Positions 8,122-52,172 of a DNA stretch of 59,464 nucleotides are shown here, one piece after another (the stretch's first letter is position 1; each line of letters begins with the position of its first letter). The position numbers and the translations under genes are program-made. Source of the DNA: a virus. The notes beneath the pieces are model-generated. The model did no database searches. It was given only the letters and a program-made list of their open reading frames with translations, and was not told the origin of the DNA. Location of the stretch: positions 1 to 59,464 of IMG/VR virus record IMGVR_UViG_3300010883_025974; one strand, 5' to 3'.

Positions 8122-9291
8122 ATGAGCACGTTTAGAAAACACAAATCCATCGCTGATAGATCTGCAACAGATCGTGCTAGGCACAAGCAAAAGATAGACA
8201 AAGCTCTTAAAGAGGGCATTCGCGATATCGTCGCCGAAGAATCTATTATCGGTCAAGATGGTAAGAAAAAAATTCGAATTCCCGTGAAGGGAATCAAAGA
8301 GTATCAATTTGTCTACGGGGATAATTCTAAGAAGGTTGGTTCGGCTCCTGGAAAAGATATTCACCGCGGTCAAAAGATCGCTGAGGATTCCGAAGATAAA
8401 AATTCAGGTGGTAAGCCAGGTGATAAGCCCGGCGAAGAGTTCTATGACGTTGAGATTACCCTAGAAGAGCTAGCCCAGTATTTGTTTAGCGATCTGGAGC
8501 TTCCAGATCTAGATAAAAAGAAGTTCAAGTTTCTATCAGCAGACACCTTTAAGAGAAAGGGTTTCCGGACTAAAGGAATACGGCCTCGCCTCTCGAAGAA
8601 AGAATCGATTAAGCAAAAGATTCGTCGCAAGAAGATGGCTGTTAAGGTTGGAACATTTAACGAAGAAGAGGATGAAAGATTTCCTTTTCACGATGCCGAT
8701 CTACGATATAAGCATTTCAAAGTGAAAGAGACAGAAATCTCTTCTGCCGCGATCTTTTTTATCATGGATATATCAGGCTCAATGAGCACAGCAAAGAAAT
8801 ACATTGCACGAAGCTTCTTCTTTCTATTGTATCAGTTTCTTCATCACAAGTATGACAATGTAGAAGTTGTATTTATCGCTCACACCACCGAGGCCAAAGA
8901 AGTCAATGAGAAGGATTTCTTCTCTTTAGCACCTTCCGGTGGAACTTTAATTTCTCCTGCTATTGACTTGACTCTAGATGTTATTGAGAAAAGATATCAT
9001 CCAAGTAACTGGAATATATACACTTTTCACTGTAGCGATGGAGATAACTGGTCTGAAGATGAAGAAAAAGCTTTAAAGTCATCACAGCAACTTAAGCAAA
9101 TATCACAGCTCTATGCATTCTGTGAAATCGATCCTGACTCAGAGTCTTCACAGTGGAGGCAGACTGATAATTCTAGAATGTATGACTTATACCAGGCGAT
9201 AATCGATAAGAAGTTTAAGTTAATTAGAATGACAAGCCCAAAAGAGATTTGGCCTGCTTTTAAGAAGCTTTTCGGCGGGAGGCTAGAGTAA
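8122..9291 (+). CDS. yeaH: DUF444 / YeaH family protein with von Willebrand A domain
   Basis: The 389-residue product matches the YeaH (DUF444) family. It has a basic N-terminus, the GGKPGDKPGEEFYDVEITLEEL region, the KKESIKQKIRRK segment, and a C-terminal von Willebrand A domain. The metal site (MIDAS) has DISGSMS at about 216-222, the GGT threonine near 275 and SDGDNW near 305-310. In bacteria YeaH is made together with the PrkA kinase (YeaG) and SpoVR (YcgB) under starvation, and is thought to act with the kinase. Here it is followed by SpoVR (overlap of one base) and PrkA. It is slightly shorter than the E. coli protein but looks intact. Confidence 0.88.
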   Translation: MSTFRKHKSIADRSATDRARHKQKIDKALKEGIRDIVAEESIIGQDGKKKIRIPVKGIKEYQFVYGDNSKKVGSAPGKDIHRGQKIAEDSEDKNSGGKPGDKPGEEFYDVEITLEELAQYLFSDLELPDLDKKKFKFLSADTFKRKGFRTKGIRPRLSKKESIKQKIRRKKMAVKVGTFNEEEDERFPFHDADLRYKHFKVKETEISSAAIFFIMDISGSMSTAKKYIARSFFFLLYQFLHHKYDNVEVVFIAHTTEAKEVNEKDFFSLAPSGGTLISPAIDLTLDVIEKRYHPSNWNIYTFHCSDGDNWSEDEEKALKSSQQLKQISQLYAFCEIDPDSESSQWRQTDNSRMYDLYQAIIDKKFKLIRMTSPKEIWPAFKKLFGGRLE

Positions 9292-10598
9292 TGGAATGGA
9301 CTTTTGAAGATTTGCAAGTCTGGGATGAGAAGATCGTCAAGCATGCTAAGTCTTATAATCTAGACTGGTATCCTATTGACTATGAAGTTTGTGATTATCA
9401 TGACATGATCGGATACATGTCATACATCGGCATGCCAACACACTATCAGCATTGGTCGTATGGCAAGTCCTTTGAGCGAACACACACCATGTATAACCTC
9501 GGCATGGAGGGGTTACCCTACGAGATGATCATCAATAGTGATCCATCGATTTCCTACCTCATGTCTGAAAATCCGATGCCGCTACAGATTCTGATCATGG
9601 CCCATTGCGTGGGACATTCAGATTTTTTTAAGAATAATCGAATGTTTAAGCACACAGATGCGCCGAACGTGATCAGTCGATTTCGAAATGGTGCTAAAAG
9701 GATCAAGAAGTATATTGATAATCCCAATATAGGCATTGATGCTGTTGAGAAAATTATTGATTCCTGTCATGCACTAAAGTATCATAATTATCGTGAGTTT
9801 GGAATCAATCGTCCTACACATAAAGAAGTCAAGCAGAAGTATATTGATCTTCTAAATTTCGATTCTAAGCTGGTTCCCGATTCTATCGATATAAATCGTA
9901 TTCCTATCGAGCCGGATTACGACATTTTAGCATTTATCGCAGAGCATTCTAGAAACCTAGAAGACTGGCAAAGAGACATCATTCATATAATTCGTGATGA
10001 ATCACGTTACTTTATGCCGCAGGCAATGACTAAAATTATGAATGAGGGGTGGGCATCTTTTTGGCATTATAAAATCATGTCAGAACTTGATCTCCCTCAA
10101 GAATTTCATCTAGCTTTTTTAAAAAGTCACAATCAGGTGCTTCGACCCACAGTCGGCCAGATCAACCCTTATCACCTAGGATTTACGATCTTTAAGTGGA
10201 TTCATGAAAACAAGGGCCTCGATGAGTGCTTTATCGCCAGGGAAGTTCATAATGATGAGTCCTTTATACGAACGTATCTTAATCGAGATATCTGTGAAGA
10301 GCTTAATCTCTTTTCGTATTCTAAAAAGAAAAAAGAATGGACAATAGATGATATCTCTGATGAAGATGGCTGGAAACAGATCCGGGAAGATCTGATTAAA
10401 AATGTAGGTCTTAACTCGATGCCAAATATTTATATTAAAGAGTTACAGAAAGATTTCACGCTCATTTTAGAGCATGAACATGACGGTAGAGATTTAGACT
10501 TAGACTATGCACATAATGTCTGTGAGCACATTATAGATTTATGGGGCGACGAGTTTAAACTATACACTGTTATTGAAGATGAGCCTTTCGAAATTTAA
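9291..10598 (+). CDS. spoVR: SpoVR / YcgB family protein
   Basis: This 435-residue protein is recognisable as SpoVR/YcgB. Family-typical stretches near the N-terminus include DWYPIDYEVCDYHDMIGYMS, GMPTHYQHWSYGKSFE and NPMPLQILIMAHCVGHSDFF. The middle has MNEGWASFWHYKIM and HNQVLRPTVGQINPYHLGF. The conserved His and acidic residues are kept. Family knowledge: SpoVR is needed for spore cortex formation in Bacillus, and its relatives are co-expressed with PrkA and YeaH; the biochemical role is unknown. The start codon overlaps the YeaH stop, indicating coupling. It lacks some C-terminal sequence compared with the roughly 510-residue E. coli YcgB. Confidence 0.9.
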   Translation: MEWTFEDLQVWDEKIVKHAKSYNLDWYPIDYEVCDYHDMIGYMSYIGMPTHYQHWSYGKSFERTHTMYNLGMEGLPYEMIINSDPSISYLMSENPMPLQILIMAHCVGHSDFFKNNRMFKHTDAPNVISRFRNGAKRIKKYIDNPNIGIDAVEKIIDSCHALKYHNYREFGINRPTHKEVKQKYIDLLNFDSKLVPDSIDINRIPIEPDYDILAFIAEHSRNLEDWQRDIIHIIRDESRYFMPQAMTKIMNEGWASFWHYKIMSELDLPQEFHLAFLKSHNQVLRPTVGQINPYHLGFTIFKWIHENKGLDECFIAREVHNDESFIRTYLNRDICEELNLFSYSKKKKEWTIDDISDEDGWKQIREDLIKNVGLNSMPNIYIKELQKDFTLILEHEHDGRDLDLDYAHNVCEHIIDLWGDEFKLYTVIEDEPFEI

Positions 10599-10645
10599 AC
10601 TCCTATTTACGATTAGCGTATTATTCCTAGCGTGGAGCAGAACGA

Positions 10646-12577
10646 ATGACAAGTTCAAAGTTCGCTGATCTAATCAGCAATCAAAGAAAAGAAAAGAAGG
10701 TAAAATATTTTAAGGGTACGTTCTTAGAATATCTTCATGAAGTTGAGACCAATCCAAAAATTGCTGAGCTAGCTCATCGTCGTCTTTACGATGCACTTGC
10801 TCGTCAGGGTACTGACACCTTGGATGAGAAAGATCCAAGATGCCGCCGTCTTTTTGATGGTGAAAAGCTAAAGCTCTACAAGTATTTCCAGCCTCACTTC
10901 TTCGGAATGGAAAGATCTCTTGCTAAAATCATGAGCTTTCTAAGCGCTGCTGCAATGAAGGGTGAAGAAAGCCGTCAGGTTCTACTGCTTCTCGGGCCAG
11001 TCGGCGCCGGAAAATCGGCGCTTATTGAGCACATTAAGCGTGCCCTTGAACAAGTTGATCACATCTATCACTTAGAGGGCTGTCCTATTCGTGAAGAACC
11101 TCTTCATCTTCTTCCTCGCTCTCTTCGTTCAAAATTTGAAGAATTGCTTGGTGCAAAGATTGAAGGTGATCTCTGCCCAGTATGTCGTCATCGTCTGTTA
11201 GAAGAATTTGATGGAAAATATGAAGATTTTCCAGTTAAGCAATCTTCTTTTTCAGTTCGCGGCAGAAGAGGAATCGGTGTTGTTCCGCCTGTTGATGCAA
11301 ATACGCAGGACACGTCAATACTAATAGGATCAGAGGACATTTCGAAGTTGGATCTGTATCCCGAGGATGATCCCAGAGTGCTTTCCTTGAACGGGGCCTT
11401 TAATGTCGGTAACAGAGGCATCGTTGAGTTCGTAGAGGTCTTTAAAAATGAGATCGAATTCCTCCATACTATGATTACAGCAACCCAGGAGAAGGCAGTT
11501 CCTTCACCGGGCAAAGGCGCGATGATCTACTTCGATGGGGTAATTCTTGCGCACTGTAATGAAGCGGAGTGGAACAGATTTAAATCCACGCATACAAACG
11601 AAGCTATCCTTGATCGAATTGTTAAAGTTAATGTTCCTTACTGCCTAGAACTTGACGAGGAAGTAAAGATTTACCAGAAGATGCTGGAGATGTCTGACTT
11701 CGATGCCCACATTGCACCGCACACCCTTGAGGTTGCATCGATGTTTGCTGTGATGTCTCGCCTTAAACCTTCTGGTAAGGTTGATCCCTTGGTTAAAATG
11801 AAGATCTATAACGGCGAGGACATCATCGAGAAGGGCCGCGTCAAGAAGGTTGATATTAAAGATCTTCGTGAGGAGTCCCGAGATGAAGGCATGACCGGTA
11901 TTTCAACACGCTTCATCACCAAAGCGATCGATTCAGCTCTAACAGATTCAGATAAAAATATGGTAACTCCCATCTCTGTAAGGAATTCCCTGATTAAACA
12001 GGTGAAGGATCAGATTATAGATGAAGAAGCTCGCGTGCGTTACCTTGAGTATCTCCAGAAAACACTGCATGAGGAATATCTGAGAATCCTAGAGAAGGAA
12101 ATTACAAAAGCCTTTGTTAGCGCTTATGAAGAGCAGGCTGAAACACTTTTTGATAATTACTTGGATCATGCTGAAGCCTATGTTAATAAGACGCGAGTTA
12201 AAGATAATATTACACGGGAAGAAATGGAACCTGATGAGAATTTCATGAAGTCTATTGAGGAAAATATAGGCATCATAGGATCGGCTCGTGACGGATTCCG
12301 GGCTGATGTTACTTCTTATATGTTTACGCTTTTGCGAGCCAAGAAGAAGATTGACTGGAAGGCATACGGACCCCTCAAGGAAGCCATCGAGAACAAATTA
12401 ATGGCGTCTGTGAAGGATATGTCTCGTATTGTTACAAAGTCTAAGTCAAGAGACAATAAGCAGCAAAAGAAATACGGCGGAATGCTCGCAACACTTATTG
12501 AAGACTATGGTTACAATGAAGATTCTGCAGAAGAAGTTATTAAGTTTGCTGCAAATAATCTTTGGCGAGATGGCTAG
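10646..12577 (+). CDS. prkA: PrkA / YeaG family serine protein kinase
   Basis: At 643 residues this is the usual length of PrkA. It shows the N-terminal YFKGTFLEYLHEVETNPKIA-type region, HFFGMERSLAKI, and a Walker A GPVGAGKS at 117-124. It also has CPVC near 177-180, a family-typical DTSILIGSEDISKLD near 226-240, an acidic Walker B-like YFDGVILAHCNEAEW near 293-307, and the C-terminal KYGGMLATLIEDYGY with EEVIKFAANNLW. PrkA couples an AAA+ ATPase core to a kinase-like C-terminal domain and drives a stress programme in bacteria. With YeaH and SpoVR upstream, the full trio is present. The ribosome site is GTGGAG. A 47-base gap separates it from SpoVR. Confidence 0.92.
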   Translation: MTSSKFADLISNQRKEKKVKYFKGTFLEYLHEVETNPKIAELAHRRLYDALARQGTDTLDEKDPRCRRLFDGEKLKLYKYFQPHFFGMERSLAKIMSFLSAAAMKGEESRQVLLLLGPVGAGKSALIEHIKRALEQVDHIYHLEGCPIREEPLHLLPRSLRSKFEELLGAKIEGDLCPVCRHRLLEEFDGKYEDFPVKQSSFSVRGRRGIGVVPPVDANTQDTSILIGSEDISKLDLYPEDDPRVLSLNGAFNVGNRGIVEFVEVFKNEIEFLHTMITATQEKAVPSPGKGAMIYFDGVILAHCNEAEWNRFKSTHTNEAILDRIVKVNVPYCLELDEEVKIYQKMLEMSDFDAHIAPHTLEVASMFAVMSRLKPSGKVDPLVKMKIYNGEDIIEKGRVKKVDIKDLREESRDEGMTGISTRFITKAIDSALTDSDKNMVTPISVRNSLIKQVKDQIIDEEARVRYLEYLQKTLHEEYLRILEKEITKAFVSAYEEQAETLFDNYLDHAEAYVNKTRVKDNITREEMEPDENFMKSIEENIGIIGSARDGFRADVTSYMFTLLRAKKKIDWKAYGPLKEAIENKLMASVKDMSRIVTKSKSRDNKQQKKYGGMLATLIEDYGYNEDSAEEVIKFAANNLWRDG

Positions 12578-12593: not shown

Positions 12594-13919
12594 ATGAGAT
12601 CTCGCGTAGAGAGTAAAGCACTAGCTTATAACCTCAAAGACTTCCTGGCAAATCTAGAAAAACTAATAAGAGTTCAGGAACAAGACTCTAAAGTAGCATT
12701 TTTAATGTCAAATGTTCCTAGAACTTCTAGTAGTCATTTTTTGTCTCTCATGTCATACAGACCGCAAAATAGAACAGAGAATATTTTTAAGCAAATAATA
12801 TTAGAATATATGCTTCAGGCAGAAAAGACATCTGCTTTGTCGTCCGGTATTATGATTAGAATGCTCATAGATCTTTGCAGAAGAAATGATAAGCTCAAGA
12901 GTATTCAAGAAAAAAAAGCTTCTATCCGATTAGAGGAAGAAGTGGAAAATATCTTAAGTGGCGTGCAAGAACTTATGAGCAGGCCCAATCTTCCAGTCTT
13001 AGAAAATTTTCTTCACAAGAATTTTCATACCTCAGTATCCTCACTGGTCTTGGAATCTTTGAAAATCGCAGGACCTGCTGGAAAAATAACATTTGATCAC
13101 AGTAATGTGCCGCAGCCAATAATCGAAGCAGACACTAGCTATGTATTCGACATAATACCTGACCAAAACCTTTTAATTCTTAACAATTTTGAGTGGAAAA
13201 AGTCTGATGTTTCGATCTTATGCATTGAAGGGTTTATCGAAAAAGTATCAGAGATAGATTCGATACTCACGACATTAGCAGAACAAAAAAAGTCAGCTGT
13301 CATTATTTGTTTAGGATACTCTGATGAGGTCATTTCTACTGTAATAGCTAATAATAGACGCGGAATTTTTGATGTGATGTTATGCAAGCCTGAAGAAGGT
13401 GCAAGCGCTATGAACGATCTTTTTGACATAGCAGCAGCCTCAGGTTCTTGTTTTTATGGATTTCAAACCGGGACTGTGTCGATTGCTTTTAAAGCATCAG
13501 ATCTAGAGCGAGCAAGTGAGGAAGTTGTGATTTCTAGTGATAAGCTAAGAATCAAAAACTCTTTTTCTCAAAGGGCTGCTAATGATCGCGCCCAAAAAAT
13601 TAAAAAACAGCTAGGGGAAAGTGACCTCAAGGATGATTATCTAAAAAGAAGAATAACATCCTTGACATCTAATCATGTAAAGATTATTTTACCAGAGAGC
13701 ACAGCCCAGGATAAATTTAGTCAAATTGAAGCAATAGATTCTGCTCTAAGGTGCTCTAATGCTATTACAAGATACGGTGTCATCGATGTCCCTAAAGATA
13801 GCATTATTCCCTGTGAGGGACGCCAGATAGCATCTTCGATTTACATCGGATGCAAATTTGGTTATGAATTATTTAAGAAAATATCTTCTATTAGTCACGC
13901 GATAGTGCTAGAAGATTAA
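12594..13919 (+). CDS. degenerate GroEL-like chaperonin lacking the ATP-site motif
   Basis: Read against the GroEL family from memory, several blocks align in order. Residues 61-97 fall where GroEL has GDGTTTATVLAQAII. Residues 152-170 (VLESLKIAGPAGKITFDHS) match the intermediate-domain ..VGKEGVITVEDG region. Residues 206-270 match the apical region (SILCIEGFIEKVSEIDSIL, then IANNRRGIFDVMLCKPEEG, where GroEL has [20 protein letters not shown]). Residues 311-327 (ASDLERASEEVVISSDK), 342-377 (RAQKIKKQLGESDLKDDYLK..) and 390-407 match the return to the equatorial domain. The GDGTTT nucleotide motif is replaced by SALSSG and the later GGG loop is lost. At 441 residues it is about 100 shorter than GroEL. 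It is probably a non-hydrolysing chaperonin relative acting as a decoy, adaptor or scaffold. It follows PrkA by 16 bases. Confidence 0.62.
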   Translation: MRSRVESKALAYNLKDFLANLEKLIRVQEQDSKVAFLMSNVPRTSSSHFLSLMSYRPQNRTENIFKQIILEYMLQAEKTSALSSGIMIRMLIDLCRRNDKLKSIQEKKASIRLEEEVENILSGVQELMSRPNLPVLENFLHKNFHTSVSSLVLESLKIAGPAGKITFDHSNVPQPIIEADTSYVFDIIPDQNLLILNNFEWKKSDVSILCIEGFIEKVSEIDSILTTLAEQKKSAVIICLGYSDEVISTVIANNRRGIFDVMLCKPEEGASAMNDLFDIAAASGSCFYGFQTGTVSIAFKASDLERASEEVVISSDKLRIKNSFSQRAANDRAQKIKKQLGESDLKDDYLKRRITSLTSNHVKIILPESTAQDKFSQIEAIDSALRCSNAITRYGVIDVPKDSIIPCEGRQIASSIYIGCKFGYELFKKISSISHAIVLED

Positions 13920-15853: not shown

Positions 15854-16200
15854 GGGGCCGATCGGTATCGACGTGACTGGATGTCTAGGAGATGCAAGTC
15901 CCAGAGGTGCCTGGCTGGGTTAACAAGGCACAAAATAATAATCGCAAACGACGATTTTAATCAAATAGCACTCGCAGCTTAAAAACCTGTAGATGCTTGA
16001 GGTGGCAGCAACCAATAAACAGAAAGTTGCATTTGAGATAAAAAATGGCTCCCTGGTAACAGGTGGGTTTCCAAGACCACATAGGAAACGGGAAAATTTG
16101 TGGATATTTTGCTAGCTCAAGAAAGAACTAGATAAACTTGTGAATGAATCCCTATGATTGAAGATTACGGACGCGGGTTCGATTCCCGCCGGCTCCACCA
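15854..16200 (+). ncRNA. ssrA: transfer-messenger RNA (tmRNA)
   Basis: The 347-base gene begins GGGGCCGATCGGTATCGACG and ends with the T-arm GCGGG-TTCGATT-CCCGC and CGGCTCC plus encoded ACCA. The 5' GGGGCCG pairs with 3' CGGCTCC (one G-U) as the acceptor stem. Pseudoknot 1 is visible just before the tag: CCCAG (15900-15904) pairs with CTGGG (15915-15919), and GTGCCT (15907-15912) with AGGCAC (15926-15931). The tag frame starts at GCA 15944. tmRNA rescues stalled ribosomes, gives the truncated protein an AlaAla degradation tag and releases the mRNA. It sits between a histone-like gene and a convergent sigma-like gene. Confidence 0.93.
15944..15982 (+). other. tmRNA tag reading frame (ANDDFNQIALAA, stop TAA)
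   Basis: This is the 12-codon frame inside the tmRNA, from the GCA resume codon to TAA. It begins AND like most proteobacterial tags and ends in the hydrophobic ALAA that ClpXP and related proteases recognise. The intact frame, correct spacing from pseudoknot 1 and intact end suggest a working tag rather than a decayed copy. Confidence 0.88.
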
Positions 16201-27592: not shown

Positions 27593-29296
27593 ATGTTGAT
27601 TTTAGGACTACCGTCGCAACACCACAGTGGGTGGGGGTTGGTAAAAGATGGAAAACCTCTTCGTGCAATTCAAGAAGAGAGACTGAATAGAATAAAACAC
27701 TATCCTTATTACACAGACAGAATTCAACATCCCATGGAGCTAGGTCTAGAATATCTTTTTCGAGGATTTGATTTTGATGTGCCGGACTGTGATGCAGCTA
27801 CAATTACTATGATGCCGCTCGGCGACGAACTAAAAGATCGGGACATGTATGTTGTAGAGTCTGTGGATGAAGTAATAGAGAGAAATCTTAAGCCCGATTA
27901 TAATACGCTTCTGACATTTATTCAAGGGCAGGGATTCAAGGGAAAAATCGTATTTGTAAATCACCAGCTTTCCCACGCTGCATATGCTTATAATCTCTCA
28001 GGATATGATTCATGTGATATTTTATCCTATGATGGTGCAGGATGCGGATTTCCACCCGAGGTAGTCGTGGGATATCGTGTTGATAATCATAAGTACACTC
28101 GAATGTTCTCCTACCGAGTCCCCCACAGTTTAGGGCATGTCTACTCCAATACTACGAATAGAATCTTTGGAGATAGATCAGATGGGTGTGAAGGAAAAGT
28201 AATGGGATTAGCACCCTACGGTATTCCGAGAGAGAATCTTCGAATGTTGATACAGAAGGATGACATGTATGCTGCAACATATCAGAATACTAATAAGGTG
28301 GTCTATACTGGGCTTGAACCTTATGCCAGCTTGTTCGGTACTAAGCAATCCAGTATTATGCAGCGAGCGCCGAAGAAGAAGTGGGATTTTACTGATGACC
28401 AAGATCGATTTTATACTGATTTAGCGGCAAGCGCGCAACAGTCTGTGGAAGATGCAGGACTACATTATGTGAAAAGATTGCAATCAGAAACATCCGGCGA
28501 TAATTTATGTCTTACAGGAGGCGTTGCACTTAATAGCTGTTTAAACGGCCTTATTAGAAGATCCGGAGTTTATAAGTCTACTTTTGCTCCTCCCGCCTGT
28601 CATGATGGGGGACACGGTCTAGGGGGGCCGCTTTATTATAGTAATACTGTTGACCCACATACCCAGGATCGTATTAAAAATGACTTTCTTGGTTATCCGT
28701 ATTCTACTGATGACTGCATCAAGGCAGCAAATGAACTCGGTATCAAATATGAGCAGTTCTCCGACATTGATACTCTGGGCAGGGATATAGCAGAGACAGT
28801 TGCTGACCAACAGATCATAGCAATTTTTAATGAAGGATCGGAGTTCGGACCAAGAGCTCTGGGGCATCGAAGTATTGTCGTGGACCCTCGTACAGCAGAA
28901 ATGAAAGATGTTCTCAATGCAAGAGTTAAGTTTAGAGAAGCTTATCGGCCTTTTGCACCTATAGTTTTGAGTGAGCATGCCCTTGAATTTTTTGAATTTG
29001 ATGAAAGCGATTTTATGCTATTTGTAGCGAAGGGAACTGATCGAGCCAAGAAAGAAGTGCCTGCTGTTATTCATGTAGACGGCACGGCAAGAATGCAAAC
29101 AGTGACAGAGTACAACCAGCCTTTCCATAGTATGCTGACTCATTTCCATCGCCTTACAGGAACACCCGTACTTTTAAATACCAGTTTCAACGTCGCCGGC
29201 CAACCTATCGTAGAAACCCCGGCTGATGCAATTAAATGTTTTCTAGGTACTTCTATTGATGTGCTTTATCTCAACTTGATAAAGATAACAAAGTAG
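27593..29296 (+). CDS. NodU/CmcH-family O-carbamoyltransferase
   Basis: At 567 residues this is a full carbamoyltransferase. The N-terminal kinase-like fold shows AIQEERLNRIKHYPYY near 26-41, FVNHQLSHAAYAYNLSGYDS near 122-141 (metal-binding His pair), and ILSYDGAGCGFPPEV. It continues with EGKVMGLAPYG near 199, CLTGGVALNSCLNG near 304-317 and FGPRALGHRSIVVDPR near 418-433. The C-terminal part has GTPVLLNTSFNVAGQPIVET near 523-542. The family uses carbamoyl phosphate and ATP to add a carbamoyl group to a hydroxyl, as on Nod-factor sugars or antibiotics. Here a glycan decoration is the natural inference. Confidence 0.9.
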   Translation: MLILGLPSQHHSGWGLVKDGKPLRAIQEERLNRIKHYPYYTDRIQHPMELGLEYLFRGFDFDVPDCDAATITMMPLGDELKDRDMYVVESVDEVIERNLKPDYNTLLTFIQGQGFKGKIVFVNHQLSHAAYAYNLSGYDSCDILSYDGAGCGFPPEVVVGYRVDNHKYTRMFSYRVPHSLGHVYSNTTNRIFGDRSDGCEGKVMGLAPYGIPRENLRMLIQKDDMYAATYQNTNKVVYTGLEPYASLFGTKQSSIMQRAPKKKWDFTDDQDRFYTDLAASAQQSVEDAGLHYVKRLQSETSGDNLCLTGGVALNSCLNGLIRRSGVYKSTFAPPACHDGGHGLGGPLYYSNTVDPHTQDRIKNDFLGYPYSTDDCIKAANELGIKYEQFSDIDTLGRDIAETVADQQIIAIFNEGSEFGPRALGHRSIVVDPRTAEMKDVLNARVKFREAYRPFAPIVLSEHALEFFEFDESDFMLFVAKGTDRAKKEVPAVIHVDGTARMQTVTEYNQPFHSMLTHFHRLTGTPVLLNTSFNVAGQPIVETPADAIKCFLGTSIDVLYLNLIKITK

Positions 29297-50327: not shown

Positions 50328-52172
50328 TTGACTAAGGATACAAAAAATAGACTGTCTGCGATCAGGAACAGATCTTTTTTAAACAAAGATTTTGGGGAAT
50401 TTAGGTCACAGCTCCTAGACTATGCCCAGACTTATTTTCCCGATAGGATACAAGACTTTTCGGAGGCCTCTTTAGGGGGCTTATTTCTGGACATGGCGGC
50501 TTATGTAGGCGACGTCACTGCATTCTATCTTGATCACCAGTTTAGAGAGCTCGATCCTGAAACAGCTGTAGAGCGAGACAATATTGAACGCTTAGCGAGA
50601 AATGCAGGCGTAGAAATTCGAGGAGCATCACCTGCAGTCGCTGAAGTTGTCTTTACTATAAAAGTAGCGTCCCAAAAAATAGGAACTATATACCAGCCAG
50701 CCGAATATTCGCTACCGATTATCAATCCTGGGACTACCGTTTCTGCGGATAACGGAATTATTTTTGAATTGACTGAAAAGATAGACTTTGCGCAGCGAGA
50801 CGAACTTAACCAGCTCATGGCAGAAATATCAGTTAATGAATTTAACTCAGACGGTACCCCCAAAGATTACTTTGTATCTCGTTCGGCGACGTGCGTTTCT
50901 GGGCAAAGAACTACTGAGAATTTTTCTATCACGAATGACCACGTGCCGTTTAGGACAATCGGTCTAGGGAATACAAACGTTAGTGATATTCTAGATGTAC
51001 GTGATGACGACGGCAACCCTTACTATGAAGTTAGCTCTCTTACACAAGACACTGTCTTTGAAGCCATTCCTAACTTAGGGGAAGACAAAAAGATAGTAAA
51101 TGATTACATAGCAGTAAAGTCAGCCCCTCGTCGATTTGTAAAAGAAACTACTACGACCACGGGAATAACTTCATTGCGCTTTGGGTCTGGTAACGCAGGA
51201 ACACTAGACGGGGATCTTATACCCGACCCCTCCGAATTAGCACTTCCCCTCTTTGGGAAAAAGATATTTTCAAAATTTACTATTGATCCCAATAATCTTT
51301 TAAAAACTAGAACCCTGGGGATCGCTCCTCGCAATACTACATTGACAGTTCAGTACCGATCCGGCGGAGGTCTTGATCACAATGTCTCAGCAAGAGCAAT
51401 TAGCTCAGTTGACGGCTTGGTTATGATTTTTCCGAAGTCACCTACTGCAGCGGATGCAGGAGTTGTTAGAGGCTCCCTGGTAGTTTCTAATCCTGCTGAA
51501 GCTGCTGGTGGAGAGGATCCCCTCACTCTCGAAGAAATACGAGGATTAATATCAGCTTCTCGAAACGCTCAGAATAGAATTGTAAGTAAGCAAGATCTAA
51601 TATCACGTATCTACACGATGCCTTCTACATTTGGAAGGGTTTTTAGAACTGGTGTCTCTCCTAACCCTCGGAATCCTTTGGCAACAACGCTTTATATTGT
51701 TAACCGCAATGCCGCCGGCCAGCTTACTCTTTCACCGGATGCTCTCAAAAAGAACTTAGTAACTTATCTGAATGAATTTAGACTGATATCAGATGCTATT
51801 GATATTCTTGATGCGCGCATCGTTAACGTAGGCATAGAATTCCAGATTTCGATCGACCCGAATTTCAACCCCGAGGCAGTACTTAGAAACTGTATTGGCA
51901 AGCTTATTAATTACACTAGAGTAGAAAACTTTCAAATAGGCGAACCCATTAGAAGTTCAGACCTAGTAAATCTTGCGTATAATACTCCGGGAGTGTTAGC
52001 AATTATTGATCTAAGGGTTATCAATAAAACTGGCCCCGTAGGATTAAGAAATTATTCTGAGGTAGTTCATAACATTCCTGTGCACACCAGTAAGGGATTA
52101 ATATTTCCTCCCGTAGGCGGCATTTTTGAGGTTAAATTCGCTGATTTAGATATTAAAGGTGCGATAGTTTGA
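50328..52172 (+). CDS. baseplate wedge protein, gp6/gpJ-like
   Basis: A TTG start three bases after gp25. The first 120 residues (FRSQLLDYAQTYFPDRIQDF, then SLGGLFLDMAAYVGDVTAFY, then LDHQFRELDPETAVERDNIE and RLARNAGVEIRGASPAVAEV) are typical of the T4 gp6 / J-like baseplate family. The C-terminal domain has ALKKNLVTYLNEFRLISDAI near 467-486 and LVNLAYNTPGVLAIIDLRV near 543-561. At 614 residues it is close to T4 gp6. gp6 forms the inner ring of the baseplate. Confidence 0.88.
   Translation: MTKDTKNRLSAIRNRSFLNKDFGEFRSQLLDYAQTYFPDRIQDFSEASLGGLFLDMAAYVGDVTAFYLDHQFRELDPETAVERDNIERLARNAGVEIRGASPAVAEVVFTIKVASQKIGTIYQPAEYSLPIINPGTTVSADNGIIFELTEKIDFAQRDELNQLMAEISVNEFNSDGTPKDYFVSRSATCVSGQRTTENFSITNDHVPFRTIGLGNTNVSDILDVRDDDGNPYYEVSSLTQDTVFEAIPNLGEDKKIVNDYIAVKSAPRRFVKETTTTTGITSLRFGSGNAGTLDGDLIPDPSELALPLFGKKIFSKFTIDPNNLLKTRTLGIAPRNTTLTVQYRSGGGLDHNVSARAISSVDGLVMIFPKSPTAADAGVVRGSLVVSNPAEAAGGEDPLTLEEIRGLISASRNAQNRIVSKQDLISRIYTMPSTFGRVFRTGVSPNPRNPLATTLYIVNRNAAGQLTLSPDALKKNLVTYLNEFRLISDAIDILDARIVNVGIEFQISIDPNFNPEAVLRNCIGKLINYTRVENFQIGEPIRSSDLVNLAYNTPGVLAIIDLRVINKTGPVGLRNYSEVVHNIPVHTSKGLIFPPVGGIFEVKFADLDIKGAIV

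Follow-up and report, generated by a model that had tools for sequence, protein, structure and literature searches.

A yeaH-spoVR-prkA gene trio from bacterial stress-protein families conserved in a clade of large marine phages

The window, meaning the whole stretch of DNA analysed, is a linear IMG/VR virus record of 59,464 bases attributed to a marine virus of bacteria. Three consecutive genes lie on its plus strand. The first (8122-9291; 389 aa) is a yeaH/yhbH homologue with a VWA domain (DUF444, PF04285; Pfam 3e-111), the second (9291-10598; 435 aa) a spoVR homologue (PF04293 and PF24755; Pfam 5e-127, with SpoVR_C at 1e-7), and the third (10646-12577; 643 aa) a prkA homologue, composed of the AAA+ domain AAA_PrkA (PF08298, 1e-143) and the PrkA C-terminal domain (PF06798, 4e-81). 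Scores of this order exclude a chance match for all three, and the family names that a first-pass annotation had proposed from the sequence were confirmed by Pfam. All three proteins also fell into viral families of the PHROGs collection, to which no function is assigned.

The three reading frames displayed no internal stops and, as the same annotation had claimed, the set is complete, ordered yeaH-spoVR-prkA and packed in an operon-like manner; its functional motifs are intact. As read from the sequence, yeaH and spoVR have a single base in common, situated within a TAATG stop-start overlap (9289-9293, plus strand) consistent with translational coupling, and 47 bases separate spoVR from prkA. 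Overlaps or near-zero spacings between yeaH and spoVR recurred in related loci, where gene starts were those of the longest ORF and overlap sizes are upper bounds.

PrkA displayed an intact Walker A motif (GPVGAGKS, lysine K123), and the solved PrkA 9xip matched the alignment profile at 4e-188. YeaH displayed a complete MIDAS (D216-x-S218-x-S220, T275 and D306), the residues of which did not vary among 25 aligned phage sequences and are also present in E. coli YeaH; a PDB sequence search with YeaH gave no credible match. NorD, which partners the AAA+ protein NorQ as its VWA protein, has been described with the same residue set. Like the putative PrkA-YeaH pair, NorQ-NorD and RavA-ViaA associate an ATPase ring with a VWA protein carrying a DxSxS-T-D MIDAS, and it is well established that an AAA+ protein and its VWA partner can act on a metalloprotein (PMC13036017). 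PrkA differs in that its sequence similarity to RavA is only weak (the PrkA profile gave weak matches to RavA and to Lon); others have assigned it to AAA+ clade III and not to the MoxR clade (PMC13001217).

SpoVR matched its Pfam profile over nearly the full length (1-405 of 407) and displayed an invariant H105xxxH109 together with E252 in an (N/H)EG motif, all conserved across 38 sequences from phages and bacteria. A PDB sequence search with SpoVR gave no credible match, leaving it with no solved relative by sequence, and a Foldseek search of PDB with its AF2 model (pLDDT 85) returned nothing significant. With VIA-align, peptidases of the M1, M3, M32, M4 and ACE families made up most of the rows obtained for this model, at Z values of up to 9.8 and alignments of about 170-200 residues, whereas the model of a neighbouring gene, submitted to the same structural comparison as a control, retrieved chaperonins instead. 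A profile comparison of SpoVR with M32 peptidases gave no signal (probability 0.2 percent), and the catalytic Glu of HExxH was missing in all aligned SpoVR sequences, which displayed HCVGH, HVYGH, HAAYGH or similar motifs. SpoVR is probably a metal-binding protein, and its model resembles zincin-type metallopeptidases; it may represent a degenerate zincin-fold metalloprotein, and we infer an effector of zincin-like fold devoid of classical peptidase chemistry. No report of a zincin-fold SpoVR was found in a literature search. In the SpoVR of giant phage LR756504 (L087:14531-16435), the conserved NEG motif is directly followed by an inserted stretch of ~130 residues that resembles an intein (CLVEGSLISTEDG...HN-C).

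Relatives of PrkA were matched in 143 viral contigs, the best 80 of which were analysed. Among these, all 77 uncut IMG/VR loci harbored the full trio in the order yeaH-spoVR-prkA, with yeaH two genes upstream of prkA in every case, while prkA of the other three began 75-1312 bases from the contig end and its upstream genes were cut off; these counts refer to contigs and not to independent phages. That the three genes are always found together in these marine phages supports their being one unit. A single copy of spoVR was present in each of the 20 records searched. The downstream neighbours of prkA varied by sub-clade and comprised a chaperonin gene, PhoH, giant LamG proteins, or a PLP-dependent enzyme together with a phosphomannomutase-like gene, so the trio behaves as a self-contained module. 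Scans for promoters, terminators and T4 late promoters stayed at chance level and yielded no expression timing.

The window itself is a 59-kb fragment with a baseplate-wedge-like gene at 50328 and a PhoH-PIN gene (Pfam), and related contigs reached up to 293 kb. A T4-type gp23 capsid gene on the same contig as the trio was found in 11 out of 17 related records searched, and a large terminase gene together with the trio likewise in 11 out of these 17. The phage origin supposed in the first-pass annotation was borne out by the baseplate-wedge-like gene and by relatives of 114-293 kb that carried trio, gp23 capsid and terminase genes.

In the bacteria nearest to the window protein, the gene order was prkA-yeaH-spoVR in 75 out of 75 complete loci, and more distant bacterial loci, on plasmid records, displayed this bacterial order too. 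Two contigs assigned to MAGs of Methylococcaceae TMED69 and of Halobacteriovorax (L090 and L091) were set apart from this count. They were rejected as bacterial loci on account of their phage gene order, their phage downstream block and their placement within the phage clade, and are, judging by these features, phage contigs binned into bacterial MAGs.

Trees were built from 52 rows for PrkA, 49 for SpoVR and 50 for YeaH; they were of a quick kind, and the fine placement of the long-branched rows (Thermus phages and LR756511) is unsure. Marine phages formed one clade in all three, with supports of 100 (PrkA), 100 (SpoVR) and 94 (YeaH); the three marine phage proteins were inherited together, as one unit. 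In the PrkA tree, this clade adjoined a bacterial group composed largely of Bacillota, and the Thermus phage proteins formed a clade of their own near PrkA from Thermomicrobium and Paenibacillus. A single phage origin of marine and Thermus PrkA was rejected (log-likelihood 79 lower, AU p 3e-7). The SpoVR and YeaH trees likewise separated the Thermus phages, but on long branches, and the weight rests on PrkA. Of four giant metagenomic phages, three grouped with PrkA of the E. coli type and one stood alone. A single clade of phage copies, which the first-pass annotation had proposed to check with trees, was recovered for marine phages, while the Thermus and giant phages were separate.

A second viral scan, launched from the giant-phage lineage, gave 121 contigs; among the best 80, which were analysed, 65 harbored the full trio in bacterial order and several larger ones included a terminase gene. 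The survey of viral contigs suggested by the first-pass annotation thereby yielded 77 complete loci in the first lineage (best 80 of 143) and 65 in the second. Since the marine, Thermus and giant-phage lineages fall apart in the trees, the trio appears to have been taken up by phages at least three separate times. Both the marine and the Thermus lineage display the permuted order yeaH-spoVR-prkA, which may have arisen there by convergence or by gene replacement.

That phages carry the trio is already known as data. The first-pass annotation knew of no characterised phage using this system, yet the genes occur in the isolated Thermus phages phiYS40, TMA, phiLo, MN1 and Lalka8, and apparently in Ralstonia phage RsoM2USA; no functional study of the trio in these phages was found in the literature. 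The Thermus phages display the same permuted order as the marine clade, but their PrkA is only about 34 % identical and was acquired separately (one clade rejected, p 3e-7), and phiYS40 differs further by an extra gene between spoVR and prkA. On the published map of RsoM2USA, an isolated jumbo phage, SpoVR (ORF28) and PrkA (ORF30) lie two genes apart and flank one gene of YeaH size, and the matches named in that paper are bacterial (PMC8504454); from its position and size, ORF29 would be yeaH. The giant metagenomic phages LR745206, LR756502, LR756504 and LR756511, together with the 65 further IMG/VR loci, are phage or phage-like contigs with these genes, several of them with terminase. They differ from marine phages by their bacterial gene order, by E. 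coli-type PrkA in three of the four and by an independent acquisition, and in LR756502 spoVR is far from prkA-yeaH. Bacterial prkA-yeaH-spoVR operons (Bacillota, Myxococcota, Pseudomonadota and others) belong to the same families, with PrkA up to about 62 % identical to that of the window, but differ in gene order and lie outside phage genomes. The record of Enterobacter 'phage' LAU1 ends in yea genes of the E. coli yeaGH type; these were rejected as phage-borne, being probably flanking host DNA.

In viral sequences from an oxygen minimum zone, spoVR was reported as the most abundant sporulation-type gene and was read as possibly inducing sporulation (PMC8940887). No paper treating the trio as a single phage module was found in a literature search. 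New here are its strict conservation and permuted order across the marine phage clade, the finding that it was acquired more than once, how strongly it is selected, and the SpoVR lead.

Comparison of the window with its two nearest relatives (L002 and L005) gave pN/pS values of 0.09-0.13 for the three genes and, where synonymous sites were unsaturated and dS could be estimated, dN/dS of about 0.03-0.04. PrkA was the slowest-changing of nine neighbourhood genes compared, and the chaperonin directly downstream changed several times faster. These low ratios indicate that the trio of marine phages is under strong purifying selection and clearly functional in phages. It is probably a working tool used on hosts, and not a stray bacterial fragment.

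The stress proteins PrkA, YeaH and SpoVR are widespread and have mostly been studied singly in E. coli and Bacillus. Their repeated uptake by phages, always side by side in the marine clade, suggests one functional unit aiding infection, and this clade ties the module to large T4-capsid phages living in the sea, an environment in which starvation of hosts is common. The reading preferred here, to which we give an even chance, is that phages maintain a working copy of the bacterial PrkA-YeaH-SpoVR stress module and impose with it a starvation-like state on the host; that phages carry the module and maintain it is shown by the sequences, and its effect in the host is extrapolated from bacteria. 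PrkA would form an AAA+ ATPase ring with YeaH as its VWA adaptor, and the pair, driven by ATP, would remodel or load SpoVR, in a way similar to that by which nitric oxide reductase receives its iron from NorQ/NorD. The module might then push the infected host into, or hold it in, a quiescent and starvation-adapted state, so that a lengthy infection cycle could be completed in nutrient-poor water. Joint action of YeaG and YeaH is known from nitrogen-starved E. coli, in which the pair was described as a metabolic brake (PMC10954441). By analogy, these data point to quiescence being imposed or managed, rather than to a host kept productive as the first-pass annotation had supposed. No spoVR homologue adjoins yeaGH in E. 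coli (L174), so the trio need not be linked. The question can be tested directly in the isolated Thermus phages that carry the trio.

A role in virion assembly, with PrkA-YeaH as an AAA+/VWA chaperone remodelling a phage structural protein, SpoVR as co-factor and host physiology not the target, was considered rather unlikely. It would fit the position of the trio between minor head and terminase genes in Lalka8 and near terminase in phiYS40, the distance of about 5 kb to the capsid gene in two marine contigs (G005 and G012), and the chaperonin gene that follows prkA in one sub-clade. However, nine other marine contigs with both displayed the trio roughly 65-112 kb away from the capsid gene, its downstream neighbours differ between sub-clades, and the bacterial counterparts work without any phage. 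An extended form of the host-quiescence reading, quite doubtful in our estimation, holds that phages built the permuted operon at least twice independently as a viral hibernation switch, in which an AAA+/VWA machine would load metal into SpoVR, then an undescribed metalloenzyme of zincin fold, which would quiet host metabolism during a slow cycle in starved cells.

The first-pass annotation had named the trio a stress-kinase set, and the protein kinase activity of PrkA is contested. E. coli YeaG was reported to display kinase activity in vitro (PMC4664914); both its K426 and its Walker lysine are needed (PMC4664914, PMC10954441), and the window PrkA has both. Purified B. anthracis PrkA, on the other hand, displayed negligible kinase and protease activity and is without a kinase P-loop (PMC13001217). 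The PrkA of Thermus phages and of some bacteria moreover lacks the K426-equivalent lysine, whose role is therefore not a universal one. The 'kinase' part of the designation is doubtful, and a reprogramming of the host through phosphorylation of its proteins by PrkA, with YeaH and SpoVR as regulators, is distinctly unlikely.

The module might also repress or disarm host toxin-antitoxin systems that would abort infection, given that E. coli yeaG is needed for repression of mqsR/mqsA and dinJ/yafQ in nitrogen starvation (PMC4664914). That effect, however, is transcriptional and appears late in starvation, and no link to defence genes was seen in the window; counter-defence was accordingly given little credence. 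Misassembly of bacterial DNA into a phage contig, or its passive carriage, for which the bacterial origin of the three families could speak and which the first-pass annotation had itself named as a danger, was rejected as having a negligible chance in view of 77 syntenic phage loci (best 80 of 143) with a phage-specific order, one phage clade, purifying selection, and the 114-293 kb relatives harboring trio, gp23 and terminase genes on the same contigs.

Several other genes of the window and its relatives deserve description. A compact and diverged gene of GroEL fold (12594-13919, plus strand; 441 aa; phrog_5725, 5e-16) follows prkA directly in one sub-clade (A6 rows, e.g. L002, L045 and L066) and was not counted in the module. 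Its AF2 model matched GroEL (Foldseek 3.5e-24; Z 27 over 439 residues). GDGT is part of the ATP-site motif of GroEL, and since it was found in only one out of 30 members, this chaperonin may be ATPase-dead, as far as the motif can tell. Proteins of 1300-2030 aa were encoded immediately downstream of prkA in L008, L024 and L031, and LamG domains were detected in those of L008 and L024, the two scanned with Pfam; the L031 contig displayed a capsid gene about 5 kb from spoVR. A phage tmRNA gene (15854-16200; Rfam 122 bits; tag ANDDFNQIALAA) was identified in the window, and at least 13 related loci likewise had a tmRNA gene downstream of prkA, with differing tags. Finally, a long run of genes at 17860-46200, in which the genes scanned included several glycosyltransferases and a carbamoyltransferase (27593-29296), suggests large-scale glycan building by the phage.
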